Source: Curtobacterium sp. SGAir0471 (GTDB taxonomy: Bacteria > Actinomycetota > Actinomycetes > Actinomycetales > Microbacteriaceae). Taken from it: a stretch of 64,000 bases of DNA. The notes beneath the pieces are model-generated. The model made no database searches and was not told the origin of the DNA. It worked only from the letters and a program-made list of their open reading frames with translations. This document shows positions 5,338 through 54,577 of this stretch, piece by piece; position 1 is the first letter of the stretch, and every line of letters starts with the position of its first letter. The stretch spans positions 1,302,001 through 1,366,000 of the forward strand of contig NZ_CP027869.1 in the NCBI RefSeq assembly GCF_005490985.1, read 5' to 3'. A program made the translations under genes and the position numbers.

Positions 5338-5405
5338 GGGCATCGAACCACGGACGCGACATCGAACCAGCACCGCCGCTGGTTCGGTGTCGTGATCCTG
5401 GTTCA
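5338..5405. repeat. 19-bp-step array, 2 direct + 2 inverted copies
   Basis: CATCGAACCA starts at 5341 and again at 5360; its inverted core CTGGTTC starts at 5379 and 5398. All four steps are exactly 19 bp. The inner pair forms a hairpin (CGAACCAGC 5363-5371 with GCTGGTTCG 5378-5386, 6-nt loop). It lies 33 bp after the putA stop and may help end putA transcription. The 12283 element shares its key words GAACCA and GGTTCGGTGTC. Confidence 0.75.
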
Positions 5406-5505
5406 ACGTGCCTCTCGGAGCGCCGAGTGCGTGTTCCGGATCGTCGAGCGTGCGGCGGACGCCGCGCCGTACCACCCGGTAGCCGCGCTGCGTACCGTCG
5501 GTCCC

Positions 5506-5661
5506 ATGTGCGAGTCCGTCCAGTGCCCGGTGTGCGGCAAGACCTCGTGGACCGGATGCGGGGAACACGTCCGCGACGTCTTCCGCGGTGTCCGTCGCCG
5601 GGACCGCTGCACGGGCCACGGACTCCCGCGGCACGTCTTCGACACCGCCGGCTTCCGGTGA
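5506..5661 (+). CDS. Small Cys-rich (putative zinc-binding) protein
   Basis: 51 residues beginning MCESVQCPVCGKTSWTGCG. The C-P-x-C-G-K-T-x-W-x-G-C-G-x-H pattern resembles small uncharacterised actinobacterial proteins annotated as hypothetical, and four Cys/His ligands suggest one metal site. The ATG at 5506 was chosen because it places this signature at the N-terminus; upstream in-frame codons look non-coding. Its TGA overlaps the GTG of the next VOC gene (GTGA), implying translational coupling. Function unknown. Confidence 0.6.
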   Translation: MCESVQCPVCGKTSWTGCGEHVRDVFRGVRRRDRCTGHGLPRHVFDTAGFR

Positions 5662-6116
5662 GCACCGCCGACGGCGGGATCGTCGACCCGCAGGGGTTCG
5701 CGCACGTCCGACTCACGGTGACGGACATCCGTCGGAGCAAGGCCTTCTACCAGCAGCTGTTCGGCATGCCGCCGGGCAGTGACTTCAGCGACCAGATCGA
5801 CGACCCGACGATCCACGACGACCCGTGGCGGACCTACGGCGGGTGCTCGTTCACGTTCCACGGGCAGACGCTCGGGCTCCGTCCGGTGGCGCGGGCTGGC
5901 GACCGCTTCGACCCCGACCGGGTCGGTCTCGACCACCTGAGCCTGCGGGTCGGGTCCGTCGACGACCTCCACCGCGCGGCCGAGCGGCTCGACCAGGCGG
6001 GCATCGTGCACGGCGCGGTCACGGACCTCGAACCGTTCGGACTCGTCATCCTGTCGCTGCAGGACCCGGACGACATCAACCTCGAGCTCGCCGCACCGCG
6101 CCCGGTGGACGCCTGA
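5658..6116 (+). CDS. VOC-family protein (glyoxalase/dioxygenase fold), copy 1
   Basis: 152 residues from a GTG that overlaps the stop of the preceding small gene. The sequence FAHVRLTVTDIRRSKAFY at the start and a C-terminal LQDPDDINLELAAP strand define a vicinal-oxygen-chelate domain. The conserved His of the first strand (AHVRL), the H in LDHLSLRV and the E in NLELAAP are the expected metal ligands. Substrate cannot be assigned; proteins of this subfamily are usually called glyoxalase/bleomycin-resistance-like. It is a tandem paralogue of the gene at 6196, with closely matching N- and C-terminal blocks. Confidence 0.88.
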   Translation: MSTADGGIVDPQGFAHVRLTVTDIRRSKAFYQQLFGMPPGSDFSDQIDDPTIHDDPWRTYGGCSFTFHGQTLGLRPVARAGDRFDPDRVGLDHLSLRVGSVDDLHRAAERLDQAGIVHGAVTDLEPFGLVILSLQDPDDINLELAAPRPVDA

Positions 6117-6195
6117 GCGGCCGACGGACGGCAGGGCTGGCCGGTTGCCGCACGACAGACGGTGCCGTCCAGCCGGACCGCGTTGGCTCGACGGC

Positions 6196-6633
6196 ATGAG
6201 CGAACAGATCGTCAAGCCCCTCGGCCTCGCGCACGTCCGGGTCACCGTCACGGACATCCACCGGAGCAAGGCCTTCTACGAGCAGCTGCTCGGCACCGCG
6301 CCCGCGATGGACTTCAGCGACTTCATCGACGAGCCCGGGATCACCGAGGACCGTGAGCGCCTGTACGGCGGCGCGATCTTCCCGGTCGGTGACCAGCTCT
6401 TCGGACTGCGGCCGGTCGCCCCGAGCGGGCAGCGCTTCGACCCGGACACCGTCGGCCTCGACCACGTGAGCTTCGTCGTCGGGTCCGTCGACGATCTGCA
6501 CGCTGCTGCCGAGCGCCTCGATGCCGCCGGCATCGAGCACGGCGAGGTCACCGACCTCGGCGACGCCGGCATGGTCATCCTGTCGGTGCAGGACCCGGAC
6601 GACATCAACCTGGAGCTCGCCGCGCAGAAGTAG
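6196..6633 (+). CDS. VOC-family protein (glyoxalase/dioxygenase fold), copy 2
   Basis: 145 residues from ATG (MSEQIVKPLG). It shares AHVRVTVTDIHRSKAFYEQL, the FGLRPVA block, LDHVSFVVGSVDDLH and LQDPDDINLELAA-type ends with the gene at 5658, so the pair arose by tandem duplication. Metal ligands appear intact (AHVRV, LDHVS, NLELA). The 79-bp gap between the copies contains a short GCCGTCC/GGACGGC-like dyad and no clear promoter. The pair is convergent with the TetR gene at 6685. Confidence 0.88.
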   Translation: MSEQIVKPLGLAHVRVTVTDIHRSKAFYEQLLGTAPAMDFSDFIDEPGITEDRERLYGGAIFPVGDQLFGLRPVAPSGQRFDPDTVGLDHVSFVVGSVDDLHAAAERLDAAGIEHGEVTDLGDAGMVILSVQDPDDINLELAAQK

Positions 6634-6684
6634 TCGCGCAGCCCTCGTGGCACACGGTGGCCGGACGGCTGTCGCCCCCGAGCG

Positions 6685-7305
6685 TCAGGGCCGCAGGATG
6701 TACTCGAACGTCGTCCGGGCGCGCTCGGGGTCCGGCGTCTCGCCGGAGATCAGGTCCGCGTACGTGAACGACTCCGAGACCCGGACGAGCAGCCGCGCGA
6801 GCTCCTCGGCGGACAGGGGCGCCGGGTCGAACGCGCCGGCGTCCTGTTCGGTCCCGATCACCGCGGTCATGACGGCCACGAACCGGCGCTGCACGTCGCT
6901 GTCGGTCGTGGTGAGCAGGCGGAGCGCTCGGGTCGGCTCCCGGGTCAGGAAGGCGCGGAAGTACGGCGCCCGGATGAGGTCCGCCGTGAAGTGGTCGAGC
7001 ACGTCGACGATCCGCGCGGCGCCGGAGGGTGCGGCCGCCCGCCCCGCGGCGTCGAGCGTCGGGACGGCGAGCGACCAGAGGATCTCGGAGAGCAGCTGGT
7101 CGCGGTTGCCGACCCAGCGGAACAGCGACGTCCGGTCGACACCGAGCGACGCGGCGACTGAGCCCATGTCGATGCGTGCCCCGTCGATGAACGCACGACG
7201 TGCGGAACGGAACGCGCGCTGGGAGTCGCCGTGGGCCTCCAGTCTGGCGGCCAGCGCGCTCGGGACGAGCGTCGATCCGAGTGTGCCGAGTGGTTCGTTC
7301 CTCAC
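6685..7305 (-). CDS. TetR-family transcriptional regulator (QsdR-like)
   Basis: 206 residues from a GTG at 7305, which has a purine-rich GGGGGAA stretch just upstream; an ATG at 7338 would add 11 unlikely residues. The HTH region contains DMGSVAASLGVDRTSLFRWVGNRDQLLSEILW at about residues 40-72, of which the SLFRWVG block matches the QsdR-like TetR group rather than the classical TLYYHF. The C-terminal half is helical and would bind the effector. It is divergent from the acyl-CoA dehydrogenase at 7369 with 63 bp between starts, so it probably represses that gene and itself. Confidence 0.85.
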   Translation of the reverse strand: MRNEPLGTLGSTLVPSALAARLEAHGDSQRAFRSARRAFIDGARIDMGSVAASLGVDRTSLFRWVGNRDQLLSEILWSLAVPTLDAAGRAAAPSGAARIVDVLDHFTADLIRAPYFRAFLTREPTRALRLLTTTDSDVQRRFVAVMTAVIGTEQDAGAFDPAPLSAEELARLLVRVSESFTYADLISGETPDPERARTTFEYILRP

Positions 7306-7333
7306 CGTTCCCCCTGAGTGCCGACGCCGGTCT

Positions 7334-7363
7334 TGCAACGTTTTCGAGAATGATGCATCGTTG
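7334..7363. promoter_or_regulatory. Candidate TetR operator/promoter between tetR-like gene and acyl-CoA dehydrogenase
   Basis: CAACG at 7336-7340 and its inverse CGTTG at 7359-7363 flank an AT-richer stretch (TTTTCGAGAATGATGCAT) that is unusual for this DNA. The site ends 6 bp before the dehydrogenase ATG, so binding would block it. Only five-base arms are clear, hence low confidence. Confidence 0.3.
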
Positions 7364-7368
7364 GTGCC

Positions 7369-8562
7369 ATGTCAACGTCGATCACCGACACGCCCCTGCT
7401 CGAATCCGACTTCTACCGGTTCCAGGAGGGGCTCACGCCCAGGGAGCGGGAGTCGCTCGGGGAGCTGCGCGCCTACCTCGAGGCCGAGGTGCGCCCGATC
7501 GCCGACCAGTACTGGGCGCGGGCGGAGTTCCCGACGCAGACGATCGCGCCGCTCGCGGAGCTCGGCATGTACGGCCCGAGCATCCCGCTCGTGCGCCACT
7601 TCGAGAACTCTGCGGTGTACCGCGGCTGGGCGGCGCTCGAGCTCGGCCGCATCGACGCCGGCGTCTCGACGTTCATCGGGGTGCAGTCCGGCCTGGCGAT
7701 GAACTCGATTGCGGTCGGCGGCAGCGACGAGCAGCAGCAGGAGTGGCTGCCGCGGATGGCCCGTGGTGAGGTCGTCGGGGCCTTCGGGCTGACCGAGCCG
7801 CTGTCCGGCAGCGACTCCGCGCGCGGGCTCCGTACCACCGCTCGGCGCGAGGGCGACACGTGGGTGCTCGACGGCGAGAAGCGGTGGATCGGCAACGCGA
7901 CCTTCGCGGACGTCGTCGTCATCTGGGCGAAGGACGTCGCCGACGAGCAGGTCAAGGGCTTCCTCGTCACGACGGACACCCCGGGCTTCACCGCCACGAA
8001 GATCGAGGACAAGATCGCCCTGCGCACCGTGCAGAACGCCGACATCGTGCTCGACGGCGTCCGGGTGCCCGAGTCGCGCCGACTGCAGCGCGCGGACTCC
8101 TTCCGCACCACGGCCGCGGTGCTCCGGCTCACGCGCACCGAGGTCGCCTGGCAGGCCATCGGCATCGCGATCGGGGCCTACGAGGCAGCGCTCGACTACG
8201 CCCGCGAGCGCATCCAGTTCGGCAAGCCGATCGCGGCGCACCAGATGGTCCAGGACCTGCTCGTCCGGTCGCTCATGAACATCACCGCGTCGATCGCCCT
8301 GTGCACGCAGGCCTCGGCGATGCAGGACCAGGGGATCGGCGGTGACGAGCACTCCGCGATGGCGAAGGCGTTCGCGACGGCGAAGATGCGCGAGACGGTC
8401 GGCTGGTGCCGCGAGGTCCAGGGCGGCAACGGCATCGTGCTCGACAAGGGGGTCGCGCGGTTCTTCTCGGACGCCGAGGCGATCTACTCGTACGAGGGCA
8501 CGCGCGAGGTGAACACGCTCATCGTCGGTCGGGCGATCACGGGGCAGGCCGCGTTCGTCTGA
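7369..8562 (+). CDS. Acyl-CoA dehydrogenase (glutaryl-CoA dehydrogenase-like)
   Basis: 397 residues. An FAD flavoprotein that introduces an alpha-beta double bond into an acyl-CoA. The N-terminal helical domain runs to about 130, the FAD-binding GAFGLTEPLSGSDSARG segment lies at about 138-155, and the C-terminal helices contain RIQFGKPIAAHQ (about 283) and the catalytic Glu376 in SYEGTREVN. The placement of this Glu and the QGGNGI block resemble glutaryl-CoA and other GCDH-type dehydrogenases. The exact acyl chain is not determined. Divergent from a TetR regulator; monocistronic as far as seen. Confidence 0.92.
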   Translation: MSTSITDTPLLESDFYRFQEGLTPRERESLGELRAYLEAEVRPIADQYWARAEFPTQTIAPLAELGMYGPSIPLVRHFENSAVYRGWAALELGRIDAGVSTFIGVQSGLAMNSIAVGGSDEQQQEWLPRMARGEVVGAFGLTEPLSGSDSARGLRTTARREGDTWVLDGEKRWIGNATFADVVVIWAKDVADEQVKGFLVTTDTPGFTATKIEDKIALRTVQNADIVLDGVRVPESRRLQRADSFRTTAAVLRLTRTEVAWQAIGIAIGAYEAALDYARERIQFGKPIAAHQMVQDLLVRSLMNITASIALCTQASAMQDQGIGGDEHSAMAKAFATAKMRETVGWCREVQGGNGIVLDKGVARFFSDAEAIYSYEGTREVNTLIVGRAITGQAAFV

Positions 8563-8813
8563 GTAGTGACCGGCGGTGCGCCGGGGCGGGCGGGACCCCG
8601 GCGCAGCGCACGCTTCTTCGACGTTGCACGTGTCGATCGACGCGCGGAATGTCGATCCGTGCACCCGCATCCAGTGCGTGTGCATCGTGCGACATCGCAC
8701 TCGTCGATCAACGCGCGCGATGTCGCCAGCGGAGCGGCCACCCAGCGGTACCGCGCACCGCCGCGCACCGCCGCGCACCGCCGCGCGCCGCGCCCCGCGC
8801 CGCTGTCCGCCGC
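8563..8813. repeat. Intergenic region with a 29-bp imperfect direct repeat and a GCACCGCC tract
   Basis: Between two convergent genes. GCAC-GTCGATC-ACGCGCG-ATGTCG occurs at 8626-8654 and again at 8697-8725 with a few mismatches, 71 bp apart; within the first copy GTCGATC recurs after 19 bp (8632, 8651). A GTGCGACATCGCAC near-palindrome sits at 8687-8700. At 8754-8795 an octamer-to-decamer GCACCGCCGC is repeated four to five times. No open frame here looks coding. Confidence 0.5.
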
Positions 8814-9686
8814 CTACGCCCAGAACGCGGCGATCGCCTCCGCTGCCGCCTCGCCCTGCCGCCGCCCCTCGGTCGCCGAGGGCGCCTGCGTCGACAGCGA
8901 CAACGAGTTGTCCCCGAACGCGTGCTGCGACGCACTGTCCGCCACGATCGTCTCGACCGAGCTCCCGCCGGCCCGCAGGGACTCCACCGCCAGGTCGAGC
9001 CACGGCCCGAGCGGCGACGGACCCTCCGGCCCGCACGCCACGACGAGCACGCGCTCGTACCCTGCGGCGACGTCGGCGTTCGTGGCCGAACGGAGCCCGC
9101 CGTCGTAGTGCGGCACCCCGTCGATGTGCACCGGCGACCACACGAACGGCACCGAGCAGCTCGCGGCCACGGCGCGGGGGAGCGGCACGCCCGACTCGGC
9201 GGTCAGCACCCGGAACGCGCCGTCGAGCGCATCGATCGTCGTCAGTGCGAGCGGCTTCGCCGGCCACTCGTCCGACGGCAGCGTCTCGCGGAACGTCGCG
9301 ACCCGCTCCTCGTCGGACTGCCCGGTGACGACCTGCTGTGCCACGGCACCGAGCCGTGCGCGAGCGTCCTGCTCCGAGGTCGCCCCTGCCAGCACCTGCA
9401 GCAGTCGGTCCTGGTAGTCATCGCCGGCGATCCGCTCCGGCTCGACGTAGGTGCTCGGCAGCGGTGCGTGCTGCTGCTCGTACGCCTGGGCCACGGCGCC
9501 GGCGCGCACGAACGAGCCGACGACACTGCCGGCACTCGTCCCGATCACGAGGTCTGCGGCGTCGAGGTCGACCCCGGCGTCCTGCAGGGCGGAGAGCACC
9601 CCGACCTCCCACGCGATGCCGGCGACGCCGCCTCCGCCGAGGACGAGTGCTCTGGTTCCGGGCGTGGGCGTCGCGAGATCCGTCAT
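8814..9686 (-). CDS. Patatin-like phospholipase family protein
   Basis: 290 residues from the ATG at 9686 (MTDLATPTPG); an in-frame ATG 24 nt upstream is less likely. The glycine-rich oxyanion loop LGGGGVAGIAWEVG spans about residues 16-29, the nucleophile elbow GTSAG places Ser51, and the catalytic Asp lies in HYDGGLRSATN. This is a Ser-Asp dyad acyl hydrolase acting on lipids. There is no signal peptide, so it is likely cytosolic. Convergent with the acyl-CoA dehydrogenase gene, which may mean a loose link through fatty-acid release, but nothing in the sequence proves it. Confidence 0.9.
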   Translation of the reverse strand: MTDLATPTPGTRALVLGGGGVAGIAWEVGVLSALQDAGVDLDAADLVIGTSAGSVVGSFVRAGAVAQAYEQQHAPLPSTYVEPERIAGDDYQDRLLQVLAGATSEQDARARLGAVAQQVVTGQSDEERVATFRETLPSDEWPAKPLALTTIDALDGAFRVLTAESGVPLPRAVAASCSVPFVWSPVHIDGVPHYDGGLRSATNADVAAGYERVLVVACGPEGPSPLGPWLDLAVESLRAGGSSVETIVADSASQHAFGDNSLSLSTQAPSATEGRRQGEAAAEAIAAFWA

Positions 9687-9712
9687 GCGACCTGTGTACC
9701 AGGTGGGCACGC

Positions 9713-9760
9713 GACGGCCGGGAGGCGCGAGGCGGACCCGCCACGCGCCTCCCGGCCGTC
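9713..9760. terminator. GGAGGCGCG palindrome (family A), 17-bp perfect arms
   Basis: GACGGCCGGGAGGCGCG (9713-9729) pairs perfectly with 9744-9760 around a 14-nt loop. It lies between the stop of the MDR gene (minus strand) and the start of the patatin gene, so it can end MDR transcription. Same element as at 12201, 19313, 48188 and others. Confidence 0.7.
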
Positions 9761-9894
9761 AGCTGGTCGCGTTGGTGACCCGTGGTCGGGTCGCGGGTCG
9801 CGCCTCCCGGCCGTCACCCGGTCACGGCGGCGACCCGTGGTCGGGTCGCAGGTCGCGCCTCCCGTCCGTCACCGGTCGCGACGGCGACCCGTCG
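9744..9894. repeat. 55-bp direct repeats of the right arm of the preceding palindrome
   Basis: CGCGCCTCCCG starts at 9744, 9799 and 9854, an exact 55-bp step. The repeated unit also carries GACCCGTGGTCGGGTCGC. So one half of the hairpin at 9713-9760 is present three times while the other half is present once. Confidence 0.75.
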
Positions 9895-10923: not shown

Positions 10924-11026
10924 GTGTCCAGGCAACCACCGCGGGGCCCCGGGTCTTCCTGGGGACGGTCAGCGGGCGCGGCGGCCGCGCGTGTCCGGCG
11001 CGTGCGGCGTCGGCGGGGCGTGTCGG

Positions 11027-11085
11027 CTCAGCGCGTGTCGCTCAGCGCGTGTCGCTCAGCGCGCGTCGGCTCAGCGCGCGTCGTA
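11027..11085. repeat. 14-bp tandem repeats overlapping the hxlR-type gene stop
   Basis: CTCAGCGCG starts at 11027, 11041, 11055 and 11070 (steps 14, 14, 15). The last copy contains the stop codon of the gene on the minus strand, so the tract looks like a tandem copy of that gene's last codons extending downstream. Confidence 0.65.
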
Positions 11086-11433: not shown

Positions 11434-11461
11434 CGTGACCTCCTGTACGCACTGTGAGGTG

Positions 11462-12200: not shown

Positions 12201-12250
12201 TGACGGACGGGAGGCGCGGTGCGGGCTCGCACCGCGCCTCCCGTCCGTCA
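12201..12250. terminator. GGAGGCGCGG palindrome (family A), 20-bp perfect arms
   Basis: TGACGGACGGGAGGCGCGGT (12201-12220) pairs base for base with 12231-12250 around a 10-nt loop, 23 bp after the stop of the NmrA-like gene and before the convergent MFS gene. It is the best-conserved copy of the family and a likely bidirectional terminator. Confidence 0.8.
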
Positions 12251-12282: not shown

Positions 12283-12346
12283 CGGAACCAGGTTCCGGAC
12301 ACAGCACCGCGAAAAAGCCCGGTTCGGTGTCCGGAACCTGGTTCCG
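12283..12346. repeat. Hairpin with 20-bp perfect arms, 19-bp internal step
   Basis: CGGAACCAGGTTCCGGACAC (12283-12302) pairs perfectly with 12327-12346 around a loop containing GAAAAAG. Each arm holds a near-palindrome (GGAACC-GGTTCC). CGGTTC at 12320 and TGGTTC at 12339 are 19 bp apart, and GGAACCA at 12284 has a degenerate partner AGCACCG at 12303. This copies the 2 + 2 plan of the element at 5341. It lies between convergent genes. Confidence 0.75.
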
Positions 12347-21585: not shown

Positions 21586-22463
21586 GGTCGGACCGCCGCA
21601 GGTGCCGTGACGTGCGTCGTGACGCGAGCCACCCGGACGACGTCCTCGGGGGTCAGCGCTGCCAGGCGGTCGAGGAACAGTGGCTGGAACGTGCCGGGCC
21701 CGCCGGCGTCCCGTGCGGCCAGCTCGGCGGCGACCGTGTGGACGAGGGTGCCGGCGACGGCGGCCGTGCCGGGGTCCTCCGGGACCACCGCCGCGAAGGC
21801 GGCGATCACGGCGCCGAGCGCGCAGCCGCCCCCGGTGATGCGCGTCAGCAGCGGTGTTCCGTTCGCGACCCGCACCACGCCCGTACCCGGCGCGACCAGC
21901 AGGTCGACGGGACCGGACACGGCGACGGCGCCCACGAGCCTCCCGTCCGACGCCCGGAGCGCGGCCTCCCGTGCCTCGTCCGTCCCGGCGGTGCTGTCGA
22001 CCCCGCGGCCCCCGTCGGCGGCGCCGAGCAGTGCGAGGACCTCCGAGGCGTTGCCGCGGAGCACGGACGGCCGGAGCGCGAGCAGCTCGTGGGCGAGGGC
22101 GGTGCGGACCGGCAGCGAGCCGACCGCGACGGGGTCCAGGACCCACGGGGTGCCGGCGTCGACCGCGGCGGTGACCGCCTCGACCGACGCCGCGCGCGGC
22201 TCGGGATGCGGTGTGCCGGTGTTGACGAGCAGGGCGTCGGCCACCCGGGCGAACGGGCCGGCCTCGGTGGTGACGTCGACCATCGCGGCGGAGGCGCCGA
22301 GGGCGAGCAGGACGTTCGCCGTCACGTTCTGCACCACCGTGTTCGTGATGCACTGCACCAGGGGGCTGCGGGCGCGCACCTCCTCGAGCAGCGTGGCGGT
22401 GCGGGCAGCCCAGTCCGGGGACGGGGCGCCGGCGGATCCGGGTACGGGCGCAGCAGTGTGCAT
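21582..22463 (-). CDS. thiM: Hydroxyethylthiazole kinase
   Basis: 293 residues from the ATG at 22463, directly behind the TPP riboswitch. It phosphorylates hydroxyethylthiazole for thiamine salvage. [26 protein letters not shown] and [12 protein letters not shown] are diagnostic. The catalytic loop reads TGGGCALGA instead of the more common TGTGC, but the Cys is kept. First gene of the operon; no thiC or thiG is nearby, so this locus is for salvage. Confidence 0.95.
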
Positions 22464-22466
22464 GGA

Positions 22467-22541
22467 CGATCCCTTCGCGAGTACGAGCTCGAGCAGGTTC
22501 GACGGGTGTGATCTCAGCCGCTCGGTGCGGCACCCCGTGTC
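22467..22541 (-). promoter_or_regulatory. TPP (THI-box) riboswitch
   Basis: Read on the minus strand the leader has ACACGGGGTGCC, then GGCTGAGATCACACCCG, GAACCTGCTCGAGC and GTACTCGCGAAGGGAT, which are the ordered conserved parts of the thiamine pyrophosphate aptamer (CTGAGA, ACCCG, GAACCTG, GCGAAGGGA). It ends a few bases before the thiM ATG, so binding of TPP most likely hides the ribosome site. The AAGGGA of the aptamer may itself act as the Shine-Dalgarno. Confidence 0.95.
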
Positions 22542-22615
22542 TCGGACGACACCGTACACGACGTCCGACTTCGTCCTCCGGGCACACCGGGGGTGCGGTG
22601 TGCCAGTGTTGACGG

Positions 22616-26360: not shown

Positions 26361-26700
26361 CCCCCATCGACACGGGTGTCGAGGCGAGACGCCGACGAGG
26401 ACGCGAGACGCCGGCGTGGACGCGAGACGCCGGCGTGGACGCGAGACGCCGGCGTGGACGCGAGACACCGCCCAGCACGCGAGACGCCGCTGGATCCCGC
26501 GGCGTCTCGACCGGCGCGCGGCGTCTCCACCGGACACCGGCGTCTCGAGGACCCGGCGCAAGCGTCGGGTCGAGGCGTCTCGTGCTGACGCCGGCGTCCC
26601 GGGGACCGGACGCACGCGTCGGACGTGCACCGGGCCTCCCGGCAGCTCCCAGCGCGCACGCGGCGGACTCCGATGCTGCAGCGGGTAGTGTCGCAGGGCC
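26361..26700. repeat. 19-bp-step array, 6 direct + about 5 inverted copies (340-bp gene-free stretch)
   Basis: CGAGACGCC starts at 26385, 26404, 26423, 26442, 26461 and 26480, exactly 19 bp apart (the fifth has one change). Inverted copies GGCGTCTCG start at 26501, 26520, 26539, 26574 and 26593; steps are 19, 19, 35, 19. The unit contains the palindrome ACGCCGGCGT. The direct and inverted blocks can fold into one long imperfect hairpin. The rest holds a possible TAGTGT -10 element at 26686 for the DnaJ gene. No gene. Confidence 0.85.
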
Positions 26701-28412: not shown

Positions 28413-28427
28413 TAGCCTCGACGCATG
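28413..28427 (+). promoter_or_regulatory. Leaderless-type start: TAGCCT then CGACGC then ATG
   Basis: TAGCCT at 28413-28418, six bases, then ATG at 28425. Nearly identical to the element at 28064. Confidence 0.5.
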
Positions 28428-29582
28428 GCCGTCCCCGCCCCGCTCGGCACCGAGGACCGAACCTCCCGCCTCACCCTCCGCCGTCCCGACCGCTGGCGCC
28501 GCGAGGACGCCCCGCAGGCCGACCTCCGGCTGACCGGCGACGACGTGGTGCTGACCGTCCGCTCCCGCCCCTCCGAGCGCATGATCGCCGAGGAGCACAC
28601 GAGCCTGCTCGAACGCCTGCCCGGCTCCGTCGAGGGGCTCCGGCTCATCGGCTGCGACCCGTGGACCGCCGCCGGAGCGCCGGCCCGCCTGGTCGAGTAC
28701 GTCCGCCCCGACGAGGAGGGCGACGTCACCGGCACCCACCTGCTCTTCGTCACCGGCCGTCACCGCGTCGACCTCACCGTCGAGCGGCCGCTCACCCGGA
28801 TGCTCGCCACCGACGACCTGGTGTCGAGCGTGCTCGAGTCCGTCCGCGCCACCGAGCCCGCACCGTCCCGACCGCAGCGCGAGCTCGAGGCCCTGCCGGT
28901 CGCCGCGCCGGCACCGCAGCTCGACGGGACGCACCTGGGGCCCGACGCGCTGACCACCCTGCGCAGCCTGGCCGGCCGCCGGTGGGACCCGATGCTCCTG
29001 CGCTCGCCCGCCGGTCGCGAACTCGTCCAGACCGGGCTCGTCGGTCGCCTCGGGACGCTCCCGGAGGCCACCCAGGAGCTCCTCGCCCCCTGGGCCGACG
29101 ACACCCAGCCGGTCACCCTGGAACAGCGGCTGCCCGACGGGCGGGCCACGCGCCTCCAGGCCTGGTCGGAGACCGTCGTCGACGGGACGGACGAGACGGG
29201 CGGCACCGTCGCCCGGCTGCCGGTCGAGCGCGTGGTCGCGTTCGCGGCCGGGAGGCTCGGCATCCGCCCGTCGTGGACCTTCCCGTTCCGCACGGGGTCG
29301 GTCGGTGCGGACCTGCTGTCCCGCAGGACGGGGACCGCCGCGACCGCGCCGGACCTGCCGGCGGCCGTCGCCGAGGCCGACCCGCGCCTGGCGCGCTTCT
29401 GGGCGGCGCCGTGGACGGTCTCGTCGATCCGTCGGCCGGGGCGGCCGGCACCGGTCGTCGTCGTGCACGCCGAGGGGATCGGCTTCGCCAGGGTCGGACG
29501 CACGGAGGCCGGGGAGACGGCCTTCCGGTCCGACTCCCCGGCCAACGTCTACCGGTCCCTGGTGCGGGCGTTGCTGGTCTGA
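28425..29582 (+). CDS. Conserved protein of unknown function
   Basis: 385 residues, no signal peptide and no membrane segment. I do not recognise it firmly. Residues about 15-140 (RLTLRRPDRWRRED to FVTGRHRVDLTVERPLTRM) have the feel of an LpqN/DUF1795-like module; residues about 165-385 are a second globular part with GTHLGPDALTTLRSLAGRRWDP, LPVERVVAFAAGRLGIRPSW and a final VVVHAEGIGFARVGRTEAGETAFRSDSP. The second part resembles EspG-like or ESX-associated proteins only loosely. The last 40 bp of the gene are the first copy of a 70-bp tandem repeat. Confidence 0.7.
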   Translation: MAVPAPLGTEDRTSRLTLRRPDRWRREDAPQADLRLTGDDVVLTVRSRPSERMIAEEHTSLLERLPGSVEGLRLIGCDPWTAAGAPARLVEYVRPDEEGDVTGTHLLFVTGRHRVDLTVERPLTRMLATDDLVSSVLESVRATEPAPSRPQRELEALPVAAPAPQLDGTHLGPDALTTLRSLAGRRWDPMLLRSPAGRELVQTGLVGRLGTLPEATQELLAPWADDTQPVTLEQRLPDGRATRLQAWSETVVDGTDETGGTVARLPVERVVAFAAGRLGIRPSWTFPFRTGSVGADLLSRRTGTAATAPDLPAAVAEADPRLARFWAAPWTVSSIRRPGRPAPVVVVHAEGIGFARVGRTEAGETAFRSDSPANVYRSLVRALLV

Positions 29583-29791
29583 CGACGTGCCGGTCCACTG
29601 TGCCCGCTGGGCCAACGTGTACCGGTCCCTGGTGCGGGCGTTGCTGGTCTGACGACGTGCCGGTCCACTGTGCCCGCTGGGCCAACGTCTACCGGTCCCT
29701 GGTGCGGGCGTTGCTGGGCTGACGACGTGCCGGTCCACTGTGCCCGCTGGGCCGACGTGTACCGGTCCCTCGTGCGGGCGTTGCTGGGCTG
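29541..29791. repeat. 70-bp tandem repeat beginning in a gene 3' end, about 3.6 copies
   Basis: GCCAACGT-TACCGGTCCCTGG starts at 29541, 29611, 29681 and 29751, an exact 70-bp step. The first copy lies in the coding end of the 28425 gene and contains its TGA at 29580; later copies are non-coding relics of the same codons. Copies differ at only a few positions (C/T after ACGT, GGTCTG or GGGCTG), so the expansion is recent. Confidence 0.95.
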
Positions 29792-29822
29792 AGCCTGCGG
29801 CTGCTGCTGCTGGCCCTGCTCG

Positions 29823-33582: not shown

Positions 33583-34073
33583 CGGCCGCGCCCGAGCCCG
33601 GGCGTACCTGGGCCTGCCGGGCGTACCTGGTCGTTCCGGGCGTACCTGGGCCTGCCGGGCGTAGCTGGTCGTTCCGGGCGTACCTGGTCGTCCTCATCCA
33701 CCAGGTACGCCCGCTTCCGCATCCCATCTCAGTCGTTCTGGGAAGGAACGGGTGTCCGGCCGGACGCCAGGCGCGGGGCGGGCCGGTGCCGCGCCTCCCG
33801 TCCGGCGCATGGTGATGTCGTTCCGTGCCGCCCGGCAGCGCTCGGTCCAGGCCTCGAAACGGTCGCGCCGTGCGGCCCTGCGGCCCGTGCGGGGAGCCGC
33901 GTGCGGCCCACGCGATGCGGCACCGCACTGCGCGATCCCGCACACAACGCCCCCGACCCCCCGTTCGGGTGTCGGCGTCCGCCGGGATCCCTCGTACCGT
34001 CGTCCCGACCGACCGGACACCCGACAGCGCCCGACCCGACGGAGCGCTGGTCCGTGAGGAACGAAGGACTGCC
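33583..34073. repeat. Composite repeat: five 19-bp copies, an inverted copy, conserved linker and family A palindrome (491-bp gap)
   Basis: GGCGTACCTGG starts at 33601, 33620, 33639, 33658 (one change) and 33677, an exact 19-bp step. The inverse CCAGGTACGCC is at 33701-33711, 24 bp after the last direct start. The linker TTCTGGGAAGGAACGGG follows at about 33736-33752, then a family A palindrome at 33761-33804. The 54.3-kb array repeats the whole order. The remaining 270 bp up to the GT2 start hold no clear gene; AAGGA six bases before the ATG is its ribosome site. Confidence 0.85.
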
Positions 34074-40227: not shown

Positions 40228-40962
40228 CCGCCCCTCGCACGCACGCACGCTCGGCCTTTTTCCTCGGCCGGCGCTGTCATCGAAGCGCGCACGAGCGTGC
40301 ACGATCCGTCACGCTCCCGCCCGCTGACGACGGGTCGCACCCGCTCGGCGTCCGACGCGCGGCGACGGCGTCCGGAAGACCGCCAGCTCCGGTCGCACGA
40401 CCTGCCGCCTGCGTCCGCTGAGGTCGCACGACTTGCCGCTCAGCTTCCGGTGCGACGGCATGTCGTGCGACCAGGGCGGTAGCGCGAGTGCGGGATCGCC
40501 GGCCACCGCCCGACGCTGTACCGGCGCCGACCGAAGACCGACGACTTCCATTCGCCAGACTTCGACCTCCGAAGCCCGGATCGTCGACGCTTCCGGTCGC
40601 ACGACACGCCACCGGCGTCCGCTGTAGTCGCACGGCATGCCGCCCGCAAGCCCTGTTGTCGCACGACCTGCCGCTCAGCTTCCGACGCGACGGCATGTCG
40701 TGCGACCAGGACGCGAGTGCGTGAGCGACGGCCGATCGCCGACCGTCGATCGACCGGCGCGGACCGACCGCCCACGCACGGTTCGTCGCCAGTTCCGGTT
40801 GCACGACATGCTGCCTGCGAGCGCCGTGGTCGCACGACCTGCCGCTCAGCTTCCGGCGCGACGGCATGTCGTGCGACGAGAACGAGCCGGGGCCCTGCCC
40901 CAGGCTAGGCAGGCCAGGCCATGCAGGCCGCGCCGGGCAGGCCAGCCCAGGCCAGGCAGGGC
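40228..40962. repeat. 31-bp-step hairpin arrays, three blocks (735-bp gene-free stretch)
   Basis: GGTCGCACGAC starts at 40391 and 40422; at 40595, 40626 and 40657; and at 40797 and 40828: every step inside a block is 31 bp. Each block ends in an inverted arm (40456-40472, 40691-40707, 40862-40877), 51 bp from the last direct start to the end. GGTCGCACGACNTGCCG pairs with CGGCATGTCGTGCGACC with one mismatch. Blocks are about 200 bp apart. The last 75 bp (40890-40962) are GGCAGGCC repeats. The stretch separates convergent merR and parA genes. Confidence 0.88.
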
Positions 40963-48233: not shown

Positions 48234-48249
48234 CCGTTCCGGCGCGCTG

Positions 48250-48430
48250 TCGGCCCGGCCCGGCCCGGCCCGGCCCGGCGTCTCGTCGGGCGCTGCCCTG
48301 GGCGCACGACCTGCCGCTCAGGTTCCGTCACGGCGGCACGTCGTGCGACCGGAACCGCCGCAGGCGGCACGTCGTGCGACCGGAACGGCCGCCGACACGG
48401 CGCGCACGGCGGCACGTCGTGCGACCGGAG
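48250..48430. repeat. GGCCC tract and a 31-bp-step hairpin relative (family B)
   Basis: GGCCC is repeated five times at about 48254-48280. Then GCGCACGACCTGCCG (48302-48316) pairs with CGGCACGTCGTGCG starting at 48334. Two further right arms start at 48365 (31 bp later) and 48410. Here the right half is multiplied, where the 40-kb blocks multiply the left half. Confidence 0.8.
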
Positions 48431-48468: not shown

Positions 48469-50508
48469 CTACTGCTCGTAGGACAGCGTGATCGTGTCAC
48501 CGCGGTGCACGGTCGACCCCTTGACCGGGTCCGTCGCGGTGACCGGGAGCGCCGACTTCCAGTCGTAGAAGCGGCAGAGCACGTTCGTGCATTCGGGGAC
48601 CTCGACGTCGAGCCCGAGGTTCTCGAGGGTGGAGGTCGCCTCGTCGATGGTCTTGCCGGCGACGTCGGGCAGCGTGATCGGCGTCGGCCCCTTCGAGAGC
48701 ACGAGGTCGACCGCCGAGCCCCGGACGGCGGGGGAGTCCTCGACGCTGGACGACACGACCTGGCCCTTCGGCACGTCGTCGCTGTAGCGCTCCTGCTGCG
48801 CACCGACGACCAGGCCGACCTCGTCGAGTGCCGCGGTCGCCGCGTCGAGGGTCTTGCCGGTGACGTCGGGCACCGCGCCGAGCGACACGGTGAGCGTGAC
48901 CGGACCGCGCTCGGCGTACTCGCCGACCGACGCCAGGTCGACGGTCTGCCCGTCGGTACCGAGGCCCTTCGCCGCGATGACGGTGTCCTTCGGTGCGTCG
49001 GCCGAGAACTCGTACTGGTCGTCCTGCAGCTGGAAGTCGTCGTCGAGCGCCGCCGTCACGGTCGACAGGGGCTGCCCGACGATCGCGGGCAGGGCGATCA
49101 TCCGCGGGCCGTCCGACACGACGATCTGCACCGGCGTGCCCTTGCGGACCTCGCGTGCTGCTGCGGGCTTCGTCGTCGACACCTGGCCCTTCGCCACCAC
49201 GGCGTCGTACCGGCTGTCGGTGCGGGCCGTCGGCTCGAGGCCCTGGGCCTGGAGCAGCTGCCTGGCCTGCGCCACCGACTTGCCGGTGACCTCGGGGATG
49301 CGGACGTTGCCCCACGGGCCGGGGCCGAGGGCCCACCCGATCACACCGGCGAGCACCGCGAGCACGACGACGACCGCCAGGACGATCCACCCGCGCTTCC
49401 GGCGCTTGGCGGACTTGTCGGCCAGCCGTTGCCCGGCGGGGGAGAGCGCGCCGGGCTGGGAGCCCGTGCGGCGAGGCCCGGGTGCGCCGCGGCGACCGGG
49501 TGCTGCGGGAGCGCCGCCGGTGGAGCTCGCGATGACCCGTGTGGCGTCGTCCGGTGCACCGCCGTCGCGTCGCCCGGTGTCTGCCGAGGACGGCGCCGCG
49601 CTGCCGGCCGGCAGGATCGCGGTCGCATTCTCCGGCCGGAGTACGGCGGTGCGGTACTGGCCGGTCGCGCGCTGCTGGTTGCCCGAGATGTGGTCGAGCA
49701 TCTCGCGGGCGTCGCGGGGACGGTCCTCGGGGTCGCGCGCGGTCGCCCAGGCGACGAGGTCGTCGAGCTCCGGCGGGACCCCGGGTTCCGCGGCGCTCGG
49801 CACCGGGACCGTGTCGTTGGCGTGCTGGTAGGCGATCTGCATCGGCTGGTCGCCCTTGTAGGGCTGCTCGCCGGTGAGCATCTCGTAGAGCATGATGCCG
49901 AGCGCGTAGATGTCGCTGCGCGAGTCGGCGGCGCCGCGCGTGACGAGCTCGGGGGACAGGTAGGCGATCGTCCCGAGCAGCGCCGCGCCGGTCGCGGTGT
50001 TCGCGGTCGTCGCCCGCGCCAGGCCGAAGTCGCCGAGCTTGATCCTGCCGTCGTCGGCGAGCAGTACGTTCTCGGGCTTGAGGTCACGGTGGACGATGCC
50101 GGCCTTGTGCGCCGACGCCAGGCCGGCGAGCACGGCGCGCAGGATGTCGGTGGCCTGTTCGGGGGTGAGGGCCCGGTGCTCCTGCAGGAGGTCCCGCAGC
50201 GTGATGCCCGGGATGTACTCCATGACGATGTACGCCGTGTCGTCCTCGGCGCCCTGGTCGTACACCCCGACGAGGTTCGGGTGCGAGAGCCGGGCGGCGG
50301 ACCGGGCCTCCTGGATGAAGCGCTCCCGGAAGGCCTGGTCGTCGGCCAGGTGCCCGTGCATGATCTTGATCGCGACACGACGCTCGAGGCGGACGTCGGT
50401 GGCGAGGTACACGGTCGCCATGCCGCCGCGGGCGATGCGCGAGCGCACGCGGTACCGCTGGTCGATCATGCGACCGATCATCGGGTCCGTGGCGGCGTTC
50501 GTGGTCAT
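48469..50508 (-). CDS. pknL: Membrane Ser/Thr protein kinase with four PASTA domains (PknL-like)
   Basis: 679 residues from the ATG at 50508 (MTTNAATDP). The kinase domain spans about 15-275: GGMATVYLA (P-loop), VAIKIM (Lys), VHRDLKPENVLL, DFGLAR and a GTIAYLSPE activation end. A Pro/Ser/Ala juxtamembrane linker, one membrane segment at about 371-395, then four PASTA repeats with P-x-V-x-G starts that should bind muropeptides or lipid II. The Rv2175c-type gene beside it and aroG on the other side match the M. tuberculosis pknL neighbourhood. It should tune envelope synthesis and growth. Confidence 0.93.
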   Translation of the reverse strand: MTTNAATDPMIGRMIDQRYRVRSRIARGGMATVYLATDVRLERRVAIKIMHGHLADDQAFRERFIQEARSAARLSHPNLVGVYDQGAEDDTAYIVMEYIPGITLRDLLQEHRALTPEQATDILRAVLAGLASAHKAGIVHRDLKPENVLLADDGRIKLGDFGLARATTANTATGAALLGTIAYLSPELVTRGAADSRSDIYALGIMLYEMLTGEQPYKGDQPMQIAYQHANDTVPVPSAAEPGVPPELDDLVAWATARDPEDRPRDAREMLDHISGNQQRATGQYRTAVLRPENATAILPAGSAAPSSADTGRRDGGAPDDATRVIASSTGGAPAAPGRRGAPGPRRTGSQPGALSPAGQRLADKSAKRRKRGWIVLAVVVVLAVLAGVIGWALGPGPWGNVRIPEVTGKSVAQARQLLQAQGLEPTARTDSRYDAVVAKGQVSTTKPAAAREVRKGTPVQIVVSDGPRMIALPAIVGQPLSTVTAALDDDFQLQDDQYEFSADAPKDTVIAAKGLGTDGQTVDLASVGEYAERGPVTLTVSLGAVPDVTGKTLDAATAALDEVGLVVGAQQERYSDDVPKGQVVSSSVEDSPAVRGSAVDLVLSKGPTPITLPDVAGKTIDEATSTLENLGLDVEVPECTNVLCRFYDWKSALPVTATDPVKGSTVHRGDTITLSYEQ

Positions 50509-50617
50509 CGGCGGCATTCTACGAAGCGCTGCCCGTGCGGCCCGACCTGACGCACCGACCGTGACCCAATCTCGATCTCGAGGATGAGTCGGCTGACCGG
50601 CCGACCACGTCCGCGCG

Positions 50618-51904
50618 TCAGAGCGAGGCCAGCAGCGCGCGCGCCGTCTGCTCCCACTTCGCGTACTCGTTCGGGTACGCGGAGACCTGGACGGCCTGGG
50701 CGGCGTCGGTCAGGGCCATCGACGACCAGCCGCGCACGCCGAGCAGCCCGCGGGTCTTGCCGGGGTTGCCGACGTAGAACAGCTCGGCGGCGGTGGCCGG
50801 GTCCTGCAGTGCGGCCTTCGTGCCCCAGCCCTGGCTCGGTCGCTGCTGGAACAGGCCGACGGAGTCGCGATCGCCGTGCGACAGGTTGCGCAGGCTCGAC
50901 TCCTGGAGTGCGGCCGCGAGGGCGATGACGATGCCGCGGTCGGGGACGCCGAGGGTCCGGCCGACGCTGACGATCGTCGCCGCGTTGCGCCGCTGCTCGC
51001 CGGTCAGCTCGACCCCGTTGACGCTGCCGACCGCGGTCGTCACGGCGCCGCCGGTCGGGGTCGTGGTCGGCTTCGAGGTCGCGGCGGGCAGCACCAGGGT
51101 CTTGCCGGCGTAGATCGTGCTCGTGTAGCTGAGGCCGTTCGCGGCGAGGAGCGCCTTCACCGACACCCCGTGCTTCGCGGCGATGGCGCCGATGGTGTCA
51201 CCGGTCGCGATCTTCACGCTCGTCGCAGCAGCGGGAGCGGGAGCGGCAGCCGGGGTGGACGCGACCGGAGCAGCCGCGGCGGGCGCGGACGCCGAGGCGG
51301 TCGTGCCGGCGCGCGGGATCGTCAGCGTCTGACCGGGGTAGATCAGCGCGCGCTGCGAGAGGTTGTTGGCCGCGAGGACCGACGAGGTCGACACGCCGTT
51401 GCGGGCGGCGATGCTCGACACGGTGTCGCCGGACTTCACGTGGTAGCTGCCGGTCGCACCGGTCGACGCCGGGGCTGCGGCGGGAGCGGCGGGCGCCGAT
51501 GCCAGGTGGAGGGTCTGGCCGGGGTGGATGATCGTGTTCCACCCGAGGCCGTTGCGGACCAGGACCTCCTGCGCGGAGAGCCCGAAGCGCGCGGCGATCC
51601 CGGAGACGGTGTCGCCCTGGCGCACCGTGTAGGTCGTCGGGGCCTTCGACACGCTGGCCACCGTGGTGACGGTGGTGGTCGACGGGCGGGCGACGGCGGT
51701 GCCGAACACCGGACGGTCGCCGACGTTGCGGTCCTCGTCGACGTGCCGCTTCTTCGCGGCGTCGTCGTCGTGCCGGGGTTCGGCGTGTGCGACCGGGCCG
51801 GTGAGGCCGGCGGTGACGGCGATCGTCCCGGCGAGGACGATGGGCATGGTGGCGAACCGGGCGGATCGAGCGCGCCGGGCGGCGTCGTCTGCAGCGTTGT
51901 CCAC
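50618..51904 (-). CDS. Secreted peptidoglycan hydrolase with three LysM domains
   Basis: 428 residues from a GTG at 51904 with AGGAG upstream. A signal peptide with Arg residues and a hydrophobic core (RFATMPIVLAGTIAVTAGLTGPVAHA) ends near residue 43. LysM repeats lie at about 95-140 (YTVRQGDTVSGIAARFGLS), 157-200 (YHVKSGDTVSSIAARNG) and 230-275 (VKIATGDTIGAIAAKHG), separated by Ala/Pro linkers. The C-terminal 130 residues (IALAAALQESSLRNLSHGDRDSVGLFQQRPSQGWG) resemble lytic-transglycosylase-like NlpC-associated domains, with Glu in QESS as the acid. Located outside the cell, cutting or remodelling the wall. Confidence 0.88.
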   Translation of the reverse strand: MDNAADDAARRARSARFATMPIVLAGTIAVTAGLTGPVAHAEPRHDDDAAKKRHVDEDRNVGDRPVFGTAVARPSTTTVTTVASVSKAPTTYTVRQGDTVSGIAARFGLSAQEVLVRNGLGWNTIIHPGQTLHLASAPAAPAAAPASTGATGSYHVKSGDTVSSIAARNGVSTSSVLAANNLSQRALIYPGQTLTIPRAGTTASASAPAAAAPVASTPAAAPAPAAATSVKIATGDTIGAIAAKHGVSVKALLAANGLSYTSTIYAGKTLVLPAATSKPTTTPTGGAVTTAVGSVNGVELTGEQRRNAATIVSVGRTLGVPDRGIVIALAAALQESSLRNLSHGDRDSVGLFQQRPSQGWGTKAALQDPATAAELFYVGNPGKTRGLLGVRGWSSMALTDAAQAVQVSAYPNEYAKWEQTARALLASL

Positions 51905-52076
51905 GGGTTGTCTCCTGTCCTGGGTGAGCCGAGCGCGCGAGCGAGCACTCACAGGTGGCTCCACGCTGACATGGCGTGATTCCCAAGTCAACCAGAGAGT
52001 CGCGTGTTGCGTGTGTGACTCGTGTGACGGACGGGGCGGCGTCAACAGTGACCGCCGCTCTGGCAACATGGGGCGC

Positions 52077-52433
52077 GTGAGTGATGGACCCACCGACGAC
52101 ACGACCCTCTCCGAGCGCTGGCTGACGGTGCCCGACCTCGTGGACCTGCTCGGGGTGACCCCCGGGCGCATCCACCGCCTCTTCGAGCAGAAGACGCTGC
52201 TGCCCGCTCGCGTGGACGGCGTCCTGCGGGTGCCGAGCGAGTTCCTCGACGACGCCGAACCGCTGCCGGAGCTGCGCGGCACGCTGATCGTCCTCGGGGA
52301 CAACGGGTTCTCCGACGACGAGGCCGTCCGCTGGATGCTCTCCGAGGAGCCGGCGCTCCGCACCTCGCCGATCGCCGCGCTGCGCGCCGGCCGCAAGGCC
52401 GAGGTGCGCCGCGTCGCGCAGTCCCTGCTCTAG
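52077..52433 (+). CDS. Rv2175c-family DNA-binding protein
   Basis: 118 residues from a GTG at 52077; an ATG nine bases upstream is an alternative. ERWLTVPDLVDLLGVTPGRIHRLFEQKTLLPARVDGVLRVPSEFLDD is the winged HTH of Rv2175c, and the C-terminal half (WMLSEEPALRTSPIAALRAGRKAEVRRVAQSLL) is the family's own domain. Rv2175c is a phosphorylation target of PknL in M. tuberculosis, where phosphorylation of an N-terminal Thr blocks DNA binding; Thr residues (TDDTT) stand at the same place here. Confidence 0.9.
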   Translation: MSDGPTDDTTLSERWLTVPDLVDLLGVTPGRIHRLFEQKTLLPARVDGVLRVPSEFLDDAEPLPELRGTLIVLGDNGFSDDEAVRWMLSEEPALRTSPIAALRAGRKAEVRRVAQSLL

Positions 52434-52511
52434 CGACACCGGAGCCCCGCTCGGCGCGGGCCGCAGGACGGTCCGCGCCACGCTGGTCGCCCGACCGGGG
52501 CGACCGGACGA

Positions 52512-52555
52512 CGGACGGGAGGCACGCGGCGGTGTCGCCACGGGCCTCCCGTCCG
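52512..52555. terminator. GACGGGAGGC palindrome (family A), 12-bp arms
   Basis: CGGACGGGAGGC (52512-52523) pairs with GCCTCCCGTCCG (52544-52555) between the convergent Rv2175c-type and idsA genes. Confidence 0.75.
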
Positions 52556-52568
52556 GTGTGACCCGCGT

Positions 52569-53687
52569 CTACGCGACGCGGCGGCTGACCGTGTCCGCCA
52601 GCGACAGCAGCTGGCCGCGCGCCGACGGGCTGAGCGGGGTGGCCTCGAGCGCTGCCTTGGCGCGCTGCACGTGCCGGTCGATCGAGCGCTCCACCGCGGC
52701 GACCGCACCGGACTCGGTGAGGGTCGCACGGAGCATCTGCACCTGCTCCTCGGTCAGGTCCGGGTCGCCGAGGAGTTCGTCGAGCAGCTGGCGGGGACCT
52801 GCCGACAGCGACTTGCGGGCGGAGGCGATGAGCACGGTGCGCTTGCCCTCACGGAGGTCGTCACCGGCGGGCTTGCCGGTCACCTCCGGGTCGCCGAAGA
52901 CGCCGAGCACGTCGTCGCGGAGCTGGTAGGCGACGCCGAGGGGCAGACCGAACGAGCGGAGGCCCTCGAGCTGCGCCTCGGACGCGCCGGCGACCAGGGC
53001 GCCGATGACGAGCGGGGCCTCGATCGAGTACTTCGCCGACTTGAAGACGATGACGCGCTGCGCACGCACCAGGTGCTCGGACTCGTCGATCGACGGCCAG
53101 GCGGTCTCCTCGTGCACGTCGAGGTACTGCCCCGCGGTCACGTCGAGCCGCATCGTGTGGAACTCCTGGCGGACGATGCGCGCCCGCGCGGGGTCGAGCA
53201 GCGCGAGTCCCTCGTCGAAGACCGCGTCGCTCAGCGAGAGCAGCACGTCTCCGAGCAGCAGCGCCGAGTTCGTGCCGTACAGCGCGCGGTCGCCGACCCA
53301 GCCGGACTCCTCGTGCAGGGACTCGAAGCGCCGGTGTGCGGCGGGACGACCGCGACGCGTGTCCGAGCGGTCCATGATGTCGTCGTGCACCAGCGCCGCG
53401 GCGTGGAAGATCTCGAGCGCGGCGGCCACCGTGACGATCGCCTCGGCCGTGGTCTGGCGGGAGCCCTCCGCCAGGGGGTCGAACGAGCCGGAACGGCCGG
53501 CGACGGACTGCCACCCCCAGTAGCAGAACAGTGCCCGGAAGCGCTTGCCGCCGGACAGCAGGTCCCGGGCGTACCGGTCGAACGGCGCGAGGTCGGGGCT
53601 GATCGCGAGGAGCCGGTCACGCTGCTCGTCGAGTGCCCGGCCGACCCGTGCCGAAACGAGGTCCACTAATCGCGTACTCTCAGCCAC
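52569..53687 (-). CDS. idsA: Polyprenyl diphosphate synthase (geranylgeranyl type)
   Basis: 372 residues from GTG. First Asp-rich motif DDIMDRSDTRRG (DDxxD) and second YQLRDDVLGVFGDP (DDxxD-like), with GKRFRALFCYWG near the start, define a trans-prenyl synthase that extends allyl diphosphates with isopentenyl diphosphate. It supplies C20 or longer chains for menaquinone, carotenoids or undecaprenyl carriers. The chain length cannot be fixed from sequence. In M. tuberculosis idsA2 also lies near Rv2175c and pknL. Confidence 0.92.
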   Translation of the reverse strand: MAESTRLVDLVSARVGRALDEQRDRLLAISPDLAPFDRYARDLLSGGKRFRALFCYWGWQSVAGRSGSFDPLAEGSRQTTAEAIVTVAAALEIFHAAALVHDDIMDRSDTRRGRPAAHRRFESLHEESGWVGDRALYGTNSALLLGDVLLSLSDAVFDEGLALLDPARARIVRQEFHTMRLDVTAGQYLDVHEETAWPSIDESEHLVRAQRVIVFKSAKYSIEAPLVIGALVAGASEAQLEGLRSFGLPLGVAYQLRDDVLGVFGDPEVTGKPAGDDLREGKRTVLIASARKSLSAGPRQLLDELLGDPDLTEEQVQMLRATLTESGAVAAVERSIDRHVQRAKAALEATPLSPSARGQLLSLADTVSRRVA

Positions 53688-53813
53688 GACTCCTACCCTA
53701 GTGGAGCGGCTGAGACGTAGGATCGGTCCACTTCAGCGATGCCACAACCCGGCGGCAACGCGGCACACCAGCGGTCACCCAGACAGCATCCCCAGGAACA
53801 AGAGGGAAACGAG

Positions 53814-54212
53814 ATGCCACTCTCGGAGCAAGAGCAGCGACTCCTCGAGGAGATGGAGCGGAGCCTCTACCAGAACGACTCCGACTTCGTGGCGCGGGTC
53901 ACGCGCCGCCAGGGTCGCGCCAGTTACACGTCGATCACGCTCGGGGTGCTGGGTGCACTCGTGGGGATCGCGATCGTCGTCGTCGCGCTCGTGATCAAGC
54001 AGCCGTGGCTCGGCCTGCCGGGCTTCATCGTGATGCTCGCCGGCGTGCTCTACGCGCTGCGCCCGGGCATGCGGATGCCGAAGTCGGGGGCGAAGGCGCC
54101 CAAGGCCGGCAAGGCATCGACCGGCCGCTCGCAGCGCTCGTCCTCGGGCGGATCGTTCATGGACCGCATGAACGAGCGCTGGGACAAGCGCAACGACCCC
54201 GGGCAGCAGTAG
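53814..54212 (+). CDS. DUF3040 membrane protein
   Basis: 132 residues. MPLSEQEQRLLEEMERSLYQNDSDFVAR is the DUF3040 start, followed by two membrane segments (about 41-60 and 64-82) and a basic, Ser/Gly-rich tail. In actinobacteria this gene usually precedes mraZ, as here. Function unknown; probably part of the division cluster. Two repeats and a terminator separate it from mraZ. Confidence 0.9.
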   Translation: MPLSEQEQRLLEEMERSLYQNDSDFVARVTRRQGRASYTSITLGVLGALVGIAIVVVALVIKQPWLGLPGFIVMLAGVLYALRPGMRMPKSGAKAPKAGKASTGRSQRSSSGGSFMDRMNERWDKRNDPGQQ

Positions 54213-54241
54213 CCGTCCGGCAGCTCCTCCACACGCCTCCA

Positions 54242-54269
54242 CGGGGCCGGTCCTTCGGGACCGGCCCCG
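54242..54269 (+). terminator. Intrinsic terminator with UUCG tetraloop
   Basis: CGGGGCCGGTCC, TTCG, GGACCGGCCCCG: 12-bp perfect stem, 30 bp past the DUF3040 stop, followed by TTCTCGT. Separates DUF3040 from the mraZ operon. Confidence 0.9.
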
Positions 54270-54533
54270 TTCTCGTGTCCGGGGTCCGTCACGTGTTGCT
54301 GTGGCGGAGCGCAGTGCACGTGCCTGGCGGAGCCGGGCGTACTCGGCGGAACCGGGCGTGCCTCGCGGTACCGGGCGTACCTGACGGAACCGGGCGTACC
54401 CCGCGAAACCGGGCGTACCTGGCGGAATCGGGCGTACCTGGTCGGACGGAACCACCTGGTTCGCCCGTTTCCGCCTTCCATTGCGGGCGTTGTGGGAAGG
54501 AACGGGCGACGCGGGCGCCGGCGCGAGCGATGG

Positions 54534-54577
54534 CGGACGGGAGGCGCGGGGCGGGCAGGCGCCGTGCCTCCCGTCCG
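54534..54577. terminator. GGAGGCGCGG palindrome (family A), 16-bp arms
   Basis: CGGACGGGAGGCGCGG (54534-54549) pairs with 54562-54577 with one mismatch. It forms the end of the composite element. Confidence 0.75.

Follow-up and report, generated by a model that had tools for sequence, protein, structure and literature searches.

Why would several intergenic arrays with unrelated sequences, in a single bacterial chromosome, place their copies at the same 19-bp step and follow the same plan, with direct copies first and inverted copies after them? This question is raised by five arrays in a window of 64,000 nucleotides, bases 1302001-1366000 of the 3.53 Mb single-contig genome of Curtobacterium sp. 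SGAir0471. The usual explanation for palindromes dispersed in bacterial genomes is either a single transposase or the folding of RNA. Here we tentatively favour, at somewhat less than an even chance, a reading in which each array lines up half-sites on double-stranded DNA for one or more putative proteins to recognise, and forms a boundary at gene ends.

All five arrays of the initial annotation (at 5341, 12283, 26385, 33601 and 54336) were found again, and re-reading of the positions confirmed their steps (Table 1). The order of direct then inverted copies and the 19-bp spacing are seen in each of them, with a degenerate second copy in array 12283 and one 35-bp step in the inverted half of array 26385. 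According to open reading frame (ORF) prediction, every array comes after a + strand gene, in line with the annotated placement at gene 3' ends. The four unit sequences first proposed reduce to three dispersed families, with A present twice, B once and D twice. Family A is GGGCGTACCTGG plus 7 nt (arrays 33601 and 54336), family B is CGAGACGCC plus 10 nt (array 26385) and family D is CGAACCAG / CTGGTTCG plus 11 nt (arrays 5341 and 12283).

A chance origin of the arrays was rejected, in view of lag-19 scores, a Markov simulation and genome-wide step counts of the families. Three window arrays reach lag-19 scores of 68.5, 52 and 47.5, the two short D arrays being unremarkable in that scan. In a 464 kb sample of the same genome, six lag-19 segments lie above threshold, and none in the simulation (one order-3 Markov simulation per stretch). 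Steps were then counted from exact pairs, with the spacer left open and steps allowed from 11-12 up to 40-42. For family A, 18 of the 19 exact pairs in the genome are at 19 and one at 38; across 40 genomes of the genus, with rows counted by reading, 120 of 130 are at 19, eight at 38 and two elsewhere (35 and 37). Family B, counted in the SGAir0471 genome only, has 33 pairs at 19 and 12 at 38 (45 of 54). For family D (CTGGTTC), 11 of 12 pairs in the whole genome are at 19, with one at 30. Rows of D in 13 genomes are at 19 in 17 of 70 cases (11 in SGAir0471, three in G009, two in G004 and one in G010), and most of the remaining rows have different steps and resemble coding sequence. As a 19-step family, D is strong in its own genome and thin in other genomes.

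A search free of any core sequence gave a similar preference. It collected dyads with 14-nt arms, at least 12 positions complementary, and an extra arm copy 12-60 bp off, recording the smallest step. The initial annotation had set 19 against other steps, and 19 is the commonest among these dyad-linked repeats, both in the 464 kb sample (8 of 55, four of them inside the window) and in 46 named Curtobacterium loci (21 of 106). The second commonest is 31, with seven cases in each set. By genome, step 19 accounts for 2 of 13 cases in G033, 3 of 13 in G007, 1 of 16 in G018 and 0 of 12 in G032. It was absent from the eight cases of three other genera (400 kb, with lower G+C and fewer dyads there). 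When the arms were reversed as a control, the yield was 19 out of 450 dyads for the sample and 41 out of 722 for the named loci, and the commonest steps of this control reach 3.

The claim of one 19-bp period in unrelated sequences is thus supported across the genome in families A, B and D, and further 19-step cores occur in relatives (CGGTGCGAGG at L062 and L084; CGAAACACCGCC with compensating GGCGGTGTTTCG at L089). As the sole step, 19 is not supported. A further family, C, keeps the same plan at 31 bp, and tandem arrays of the same genome have periods of 14, 16, 22, 23 and 53 bp, so a single step for all repeats was rejected. The fixed step of 19 bp, near two helical turns, is an iteron-like feature.

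The structure is seen best in family A. A set of 41 elements, picked by exact or near-exact cores, aligns gap-free over 99 columns, and a model built from them matches 30 of the 40 genus genomes, SGAir0471 among them. Under stricter filters it matches 3 of 120 family-level genomes, all three Curtobacterium, and has no match in the 84 other genera sampled. Because the palindromic elements match both strands, matches exceed elements, and 34 rows in the SGAir0471 genome correspond to 27 places. In G033, 42 of 45 matches are exactly 99 long, insertions having been allowed. Family A is a rigid element with a conserved unit of about 97 bp. Its description as dispersed intergenic palindromes is confirmed by the 27 places and by the dyad in 99 aligned elements. 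Exact A cores are confined to arrays in the 464 kb sample, and six matches with one mismatch have no array (L033, L037 at 5916, L040, L042, L045 and L048). Some loci have a tandem duplication that includes the dyad-tail (L070, L121 and L199). The only match in a plasmid collection, from Embleya, was rejected; it reads by eye, not by annotation, as a coding repeat of collagen-like Gly-X-Y type.

A larger set holds 142 elements, selected for their dyad, tail and start of the arm. Information in it begins to climb near -38, becomes strong at -19 and stops sharply at about +77. Counted from the last direct arm, blocks of 12 bp lie at -19, 0, +25, +44 and +63, the last three being 19 apart. Direct copies -1 to -5 are in register in 131, 85, 45, 24 and 12 of the 142, and these extra copies keep register though pairing does not need them. 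The right edge is sharp and the left ragged, compared with the two sharp ends and target duplications of a miniature inverted-repeat transposable element (MITE) or transposon.

At matching loci, relatives do have arrays whose arms compensate each other; the initial annotation had named the absence of such arrays beforehand as refuting a common rule. On the 3' side of the UDP-glucose dehydrogenase (UGDH) gene, an element stands at the same place in many species with different arms, both sides matching, and at shared loci the upstream direct copies are sometimes switched along with both arms. SGAir0471 and G039 have 17 of 23 A loci in common; at L016/L322 and L154/L321 the arms of G039 are GCGCGT(A/C)GGAGG versus GGGC(G/A)TACCTGG in SGAir0471. 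Among 30 of the 45 G033 matches that were fetched, all arms begin GC(G/T)C and none is GGGCGTACCTGG; at least six SGAir0471 loci have an ortholog among these 30. Intermediate arms are found at L196 and L199.

The stem covaries, with 133 cells changed on both sides versus 59.8 in shuffles. The covariation score is 0.229 versus 0.109 shuffled and 0.104 for the best slide, above all 500 shuffles (which ignore relatedness) and slid controls. Stem pair 21-55 is GC in 82 elements, CG in 16 and GU in one, with no broken pair. The finders asked for complementarity at 9 of 12 or 8 of 12 positions of the arms and for a tail at a set distance, rules that favour pairing percentages and gaplessness by construction, but not G.U over A.C. 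The tail helix is weak (78.8 versus 77.3 percent paired), and another candidate helix, which would pair spacer columns 13-19 and 57-63, was rejected, being little above shuffles.

Mutation alone could in principle build such palindromes. Template switching would perfect them and slippage would multiply the arm, with neither selection nor dispersal machinery. The arrays do fade at the far end, adjacent units are alike, and template switching would alter both arms together, leaving no G.U bias. These processes act locally, however, whereas cores are common to dispersed loci and arm types differ between genomes at orthologous loci, so the slippage that had been suggested fails as the sole cause. 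The kept tail distance also speaks against mutation alone, which would leave unexplained why all three families, A, B and D, step by 19. We consider this account very unlikely.

Most family A elements are in sense with the gene before them. Among 99 of them, 10 are inside a predicted ORF and five have no upstream call; the upstream neighbour of the remaining 84 is in sense for 70, though many loci are orthologous and the counts are therefore not independent. Neighbours of these 84 are most commonly convergent (46), then co-directional (22). Dyads lie at most 170 nt from the predicted stop in 49 of the 70. At the SGAir0471 loci, 18 of 23 are in sense by automatic call. Gene prediction relied solely on the G+C content of codon positions and on ORF length, and orientation calls contain errors; two of these loci (L005 and L018) are antisense by automatic call and sense by eye. 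On the chromosome, 19 of the 23 loci are on the + strand and four on the - strand, with no switch between chromosome halves.

A G+C-rich hairpin past the gene end is present in the A elements, and RNA 3'-end hairpins are one candidate: transcribed terminators or mRNA-stabilising stem-loops, with extra 5' arms competing for the inverted arm. Sense orientation after stop codons and arms that compensate each other agree with it. By eye, no T run follows the dyad or the tail in the alignment of 99 elements, and Rfam gave no match at the arrays at gathering scores (window, L016 and L149). Core sequence and extra arms are conserved beyond pairing, and the element sometimes stands behind what appears to be the gene's own terminator hairpin (54240-54275; the UGDH locus). 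The stem itself also argues against RNA. Selection on an RNA stem is expected to leave an excess of G.U over A.C on the sense strand, and mismatches amount to 128 G.U versus 125 A.C (18 pairs, 157 distinct stems, with a few chance finds). The outer 12 stem pairs have 71 and 66, and co-directional sense neighbours 25 and 24. This lack of a G.U excess is the principal argument, moderately strong, for double-stranded DNA over RNA, and we consider RNA hairpins improbable.

How might double-stranded DNA be used here? One protein, or several related ones with different sequence preferences, would seat a subunit about every 19 bp, first on the direct sites, then on the dyad, then on the inverted sites; the blocks at +44 and +63 may be further sites. 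Such a protein lattice is suggested because unrelated words share one step, and co-evolution with the reader because arms are reworded while places are kept. Family A would most likely act as a gene-end boundary, either as a polar roadblock to RNA polymerase or as a supercoil or insulator site. More speculatively, and rather unlikely in this extended form, parallel addressing systems might mark Curtobacterium gene ends: several DNA-binding proteins of the same architecture, each with its own half-site words and the common 19-bp step, whose arrays are re-worded with the protein and keep their places.

Several observations weigh against protein-read half-sites. The step is not uniform, since nine of 54 family B pairs are off-step (15, 18, 33, 34, 35 twice, 36 twice and 39) and family C follows the array plan with a step of 31. 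Just 6 of 142 A elements have a second inverted arm (at least 8 of 12), and identity averages 4.9 of 12 in the +44 block and 1.9 in the +63 block, so that these blocks share register and not word. In the tRNA control 47 G.U and 0 A.C were counted, a comparison biased since ARAGORN seeks pairs; the control with family E hairpins gave 12 versus 5, which is not significant (p 0.14). Sense polarity and covariation are also compatible with an RNA hairpin. The reading protein is itself conjectural; none was found, and no search aimed at one was made. Lastly, G003 has no A match, when its tree neighbours have 36 (G011), 76 (G005), 53 (G032) and 75 (G001). These four are grouped with G003 in a tree of the UGDH genes from 30 genomes (support 80/90), and at the UGDH locus of G003 (L407 12820-13000) an array with a 37-bp period fills the place of the A element, with flanks aligning at 88 and 94 percent. 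The loss at this locus means that A elements can disappear, and it suggests that selection or homogenisation maintains them elsewhere.

This loss also fits selfish or homogenised repeats: non-autonomous palindromes that an unknown enzyme, or gene conversion between copies, once spread and that are tolerated at 3' ends without host function, where a new variant overwrites the arms. The 97-bp block at 27 places means that copying happened, the distribution is patchy (10 of 40 genus genomes have no A match), and the lack of matches in the 84 other genera sampled and the dyad-tail duplications point the same way. Mobility by RAYT was nevertheless rejected, as the Y1 transposase (PF01797) was found in 0 of 40 genus genomes versus 5 of 14 control genomes, other transposases not having been searched for. 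The places shared with G039 and G033 and the ragged left end, unlike that of a transposon, do not fit either, and one step across three families is left without a reason. We regard this explanation as somewhat unlikely.

Taken together, stem mismatches that favour DNA over RNA, one step in three unrelated families and two-sided rewriting of orthologous arrays turn a hidden protein ruler, or a novel type of gene-end boundary, into a directly testable proposal. In a limited literature search on Curtobacterium intergenic or tandem repeats no such arrays were found by title, which does not establish their absence from print.

Other repeats are found nearby (Table 1). In family C, direct GTCGCACGAC copies are spaced by 31 bp, and the inverted copy that follows is in every case 39 bp from the last direct one. 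Family E hairpins are very common in the 464 kb sample, often adjoining A and B arrays, and are probably terminators. A tandem repeat with a 70-bp unit, present in 3.6 copies that match at 96 percent, overlaps the 3' end of a predicted + strand gene at 28425-29582.

Table 1. Arrays, hairpins and RNA features, in window positions.
Feature	Position	Strand	Details
D array	5344..5405	+	direct CGAACCA at 5344, 5363; inverted TGGTTC at 5380, 5399; steps 19 and 19
D array	12285..12345	+	direct GAACCAG at 12285 with a degenerate second copy; inverted GGTTC at 12321, 12340 (step 19)
B array, direct part	26385..26601	+	six CGAGACGCC at 26385, 26404, 26423, 26442, 26461 (one mismatch), 26480
B array, inverted part	26385..26601	+	five copies at 26501, 26520, 26539, 26574, 26593; steps 19, 19, 35, 19
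A element	33600..33750	+	direct GGGCGTACCTGG arms at 33600, 33619, 33638, 33657, 33676; inverted arm (dyad) 33701; tail TGGGAAGGAACG 33739
A element	54316..54504	+	direct arms at 54335, 54354, 54373, 54392, 54411, 54430; degenerate arm 54316; inverted 54455; tail 54493
Family C	40392-40877		three arrays in succession
Family C	48340-48425		
Family E hairpins	12203-12250, 33755-33803, 54528-54577, elsewhere		CGGACGGGAGGCGCGG / CCGCGCCTCCCGTCCG
70-bp tandem repeat	29540-29792		
Thiamine pyrophosphate (TPP) riboswitch	22452-22547	-	Rfam
mraW RNA	55246-55344	+	Rfam

Among known systems, intrinsic terminator hairpins share the G+C-rich dyad past stop codons, but the arrays have neither T run nor G.U tolerance and conserve primary sequence and extra arms. 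REP, BIME and REPIN elements with RAYT are likewise dispersed intergenic palindromes at gene 3' ends with lineage-specific sequence; unlike them, the arrays occur in a genus where all 40 genomes are without Y1 transposase, with ragged rows of direct arms and a 19-bp step common to unrelated families. The eukaryotic roadblock terminators Reb1 and TTF-I also use polar site arrays past gene ends, with a known protein there and a putative reader here. Finally, the arrays differ from plasmid iterons and from end arrays of the Tn7/Tn5053 type in being chromosomal, at many gene ends and without a conserved left end, and resemble them in direct then inverted sites of about 19-22 bp, which in those systems carry one protein lattice.

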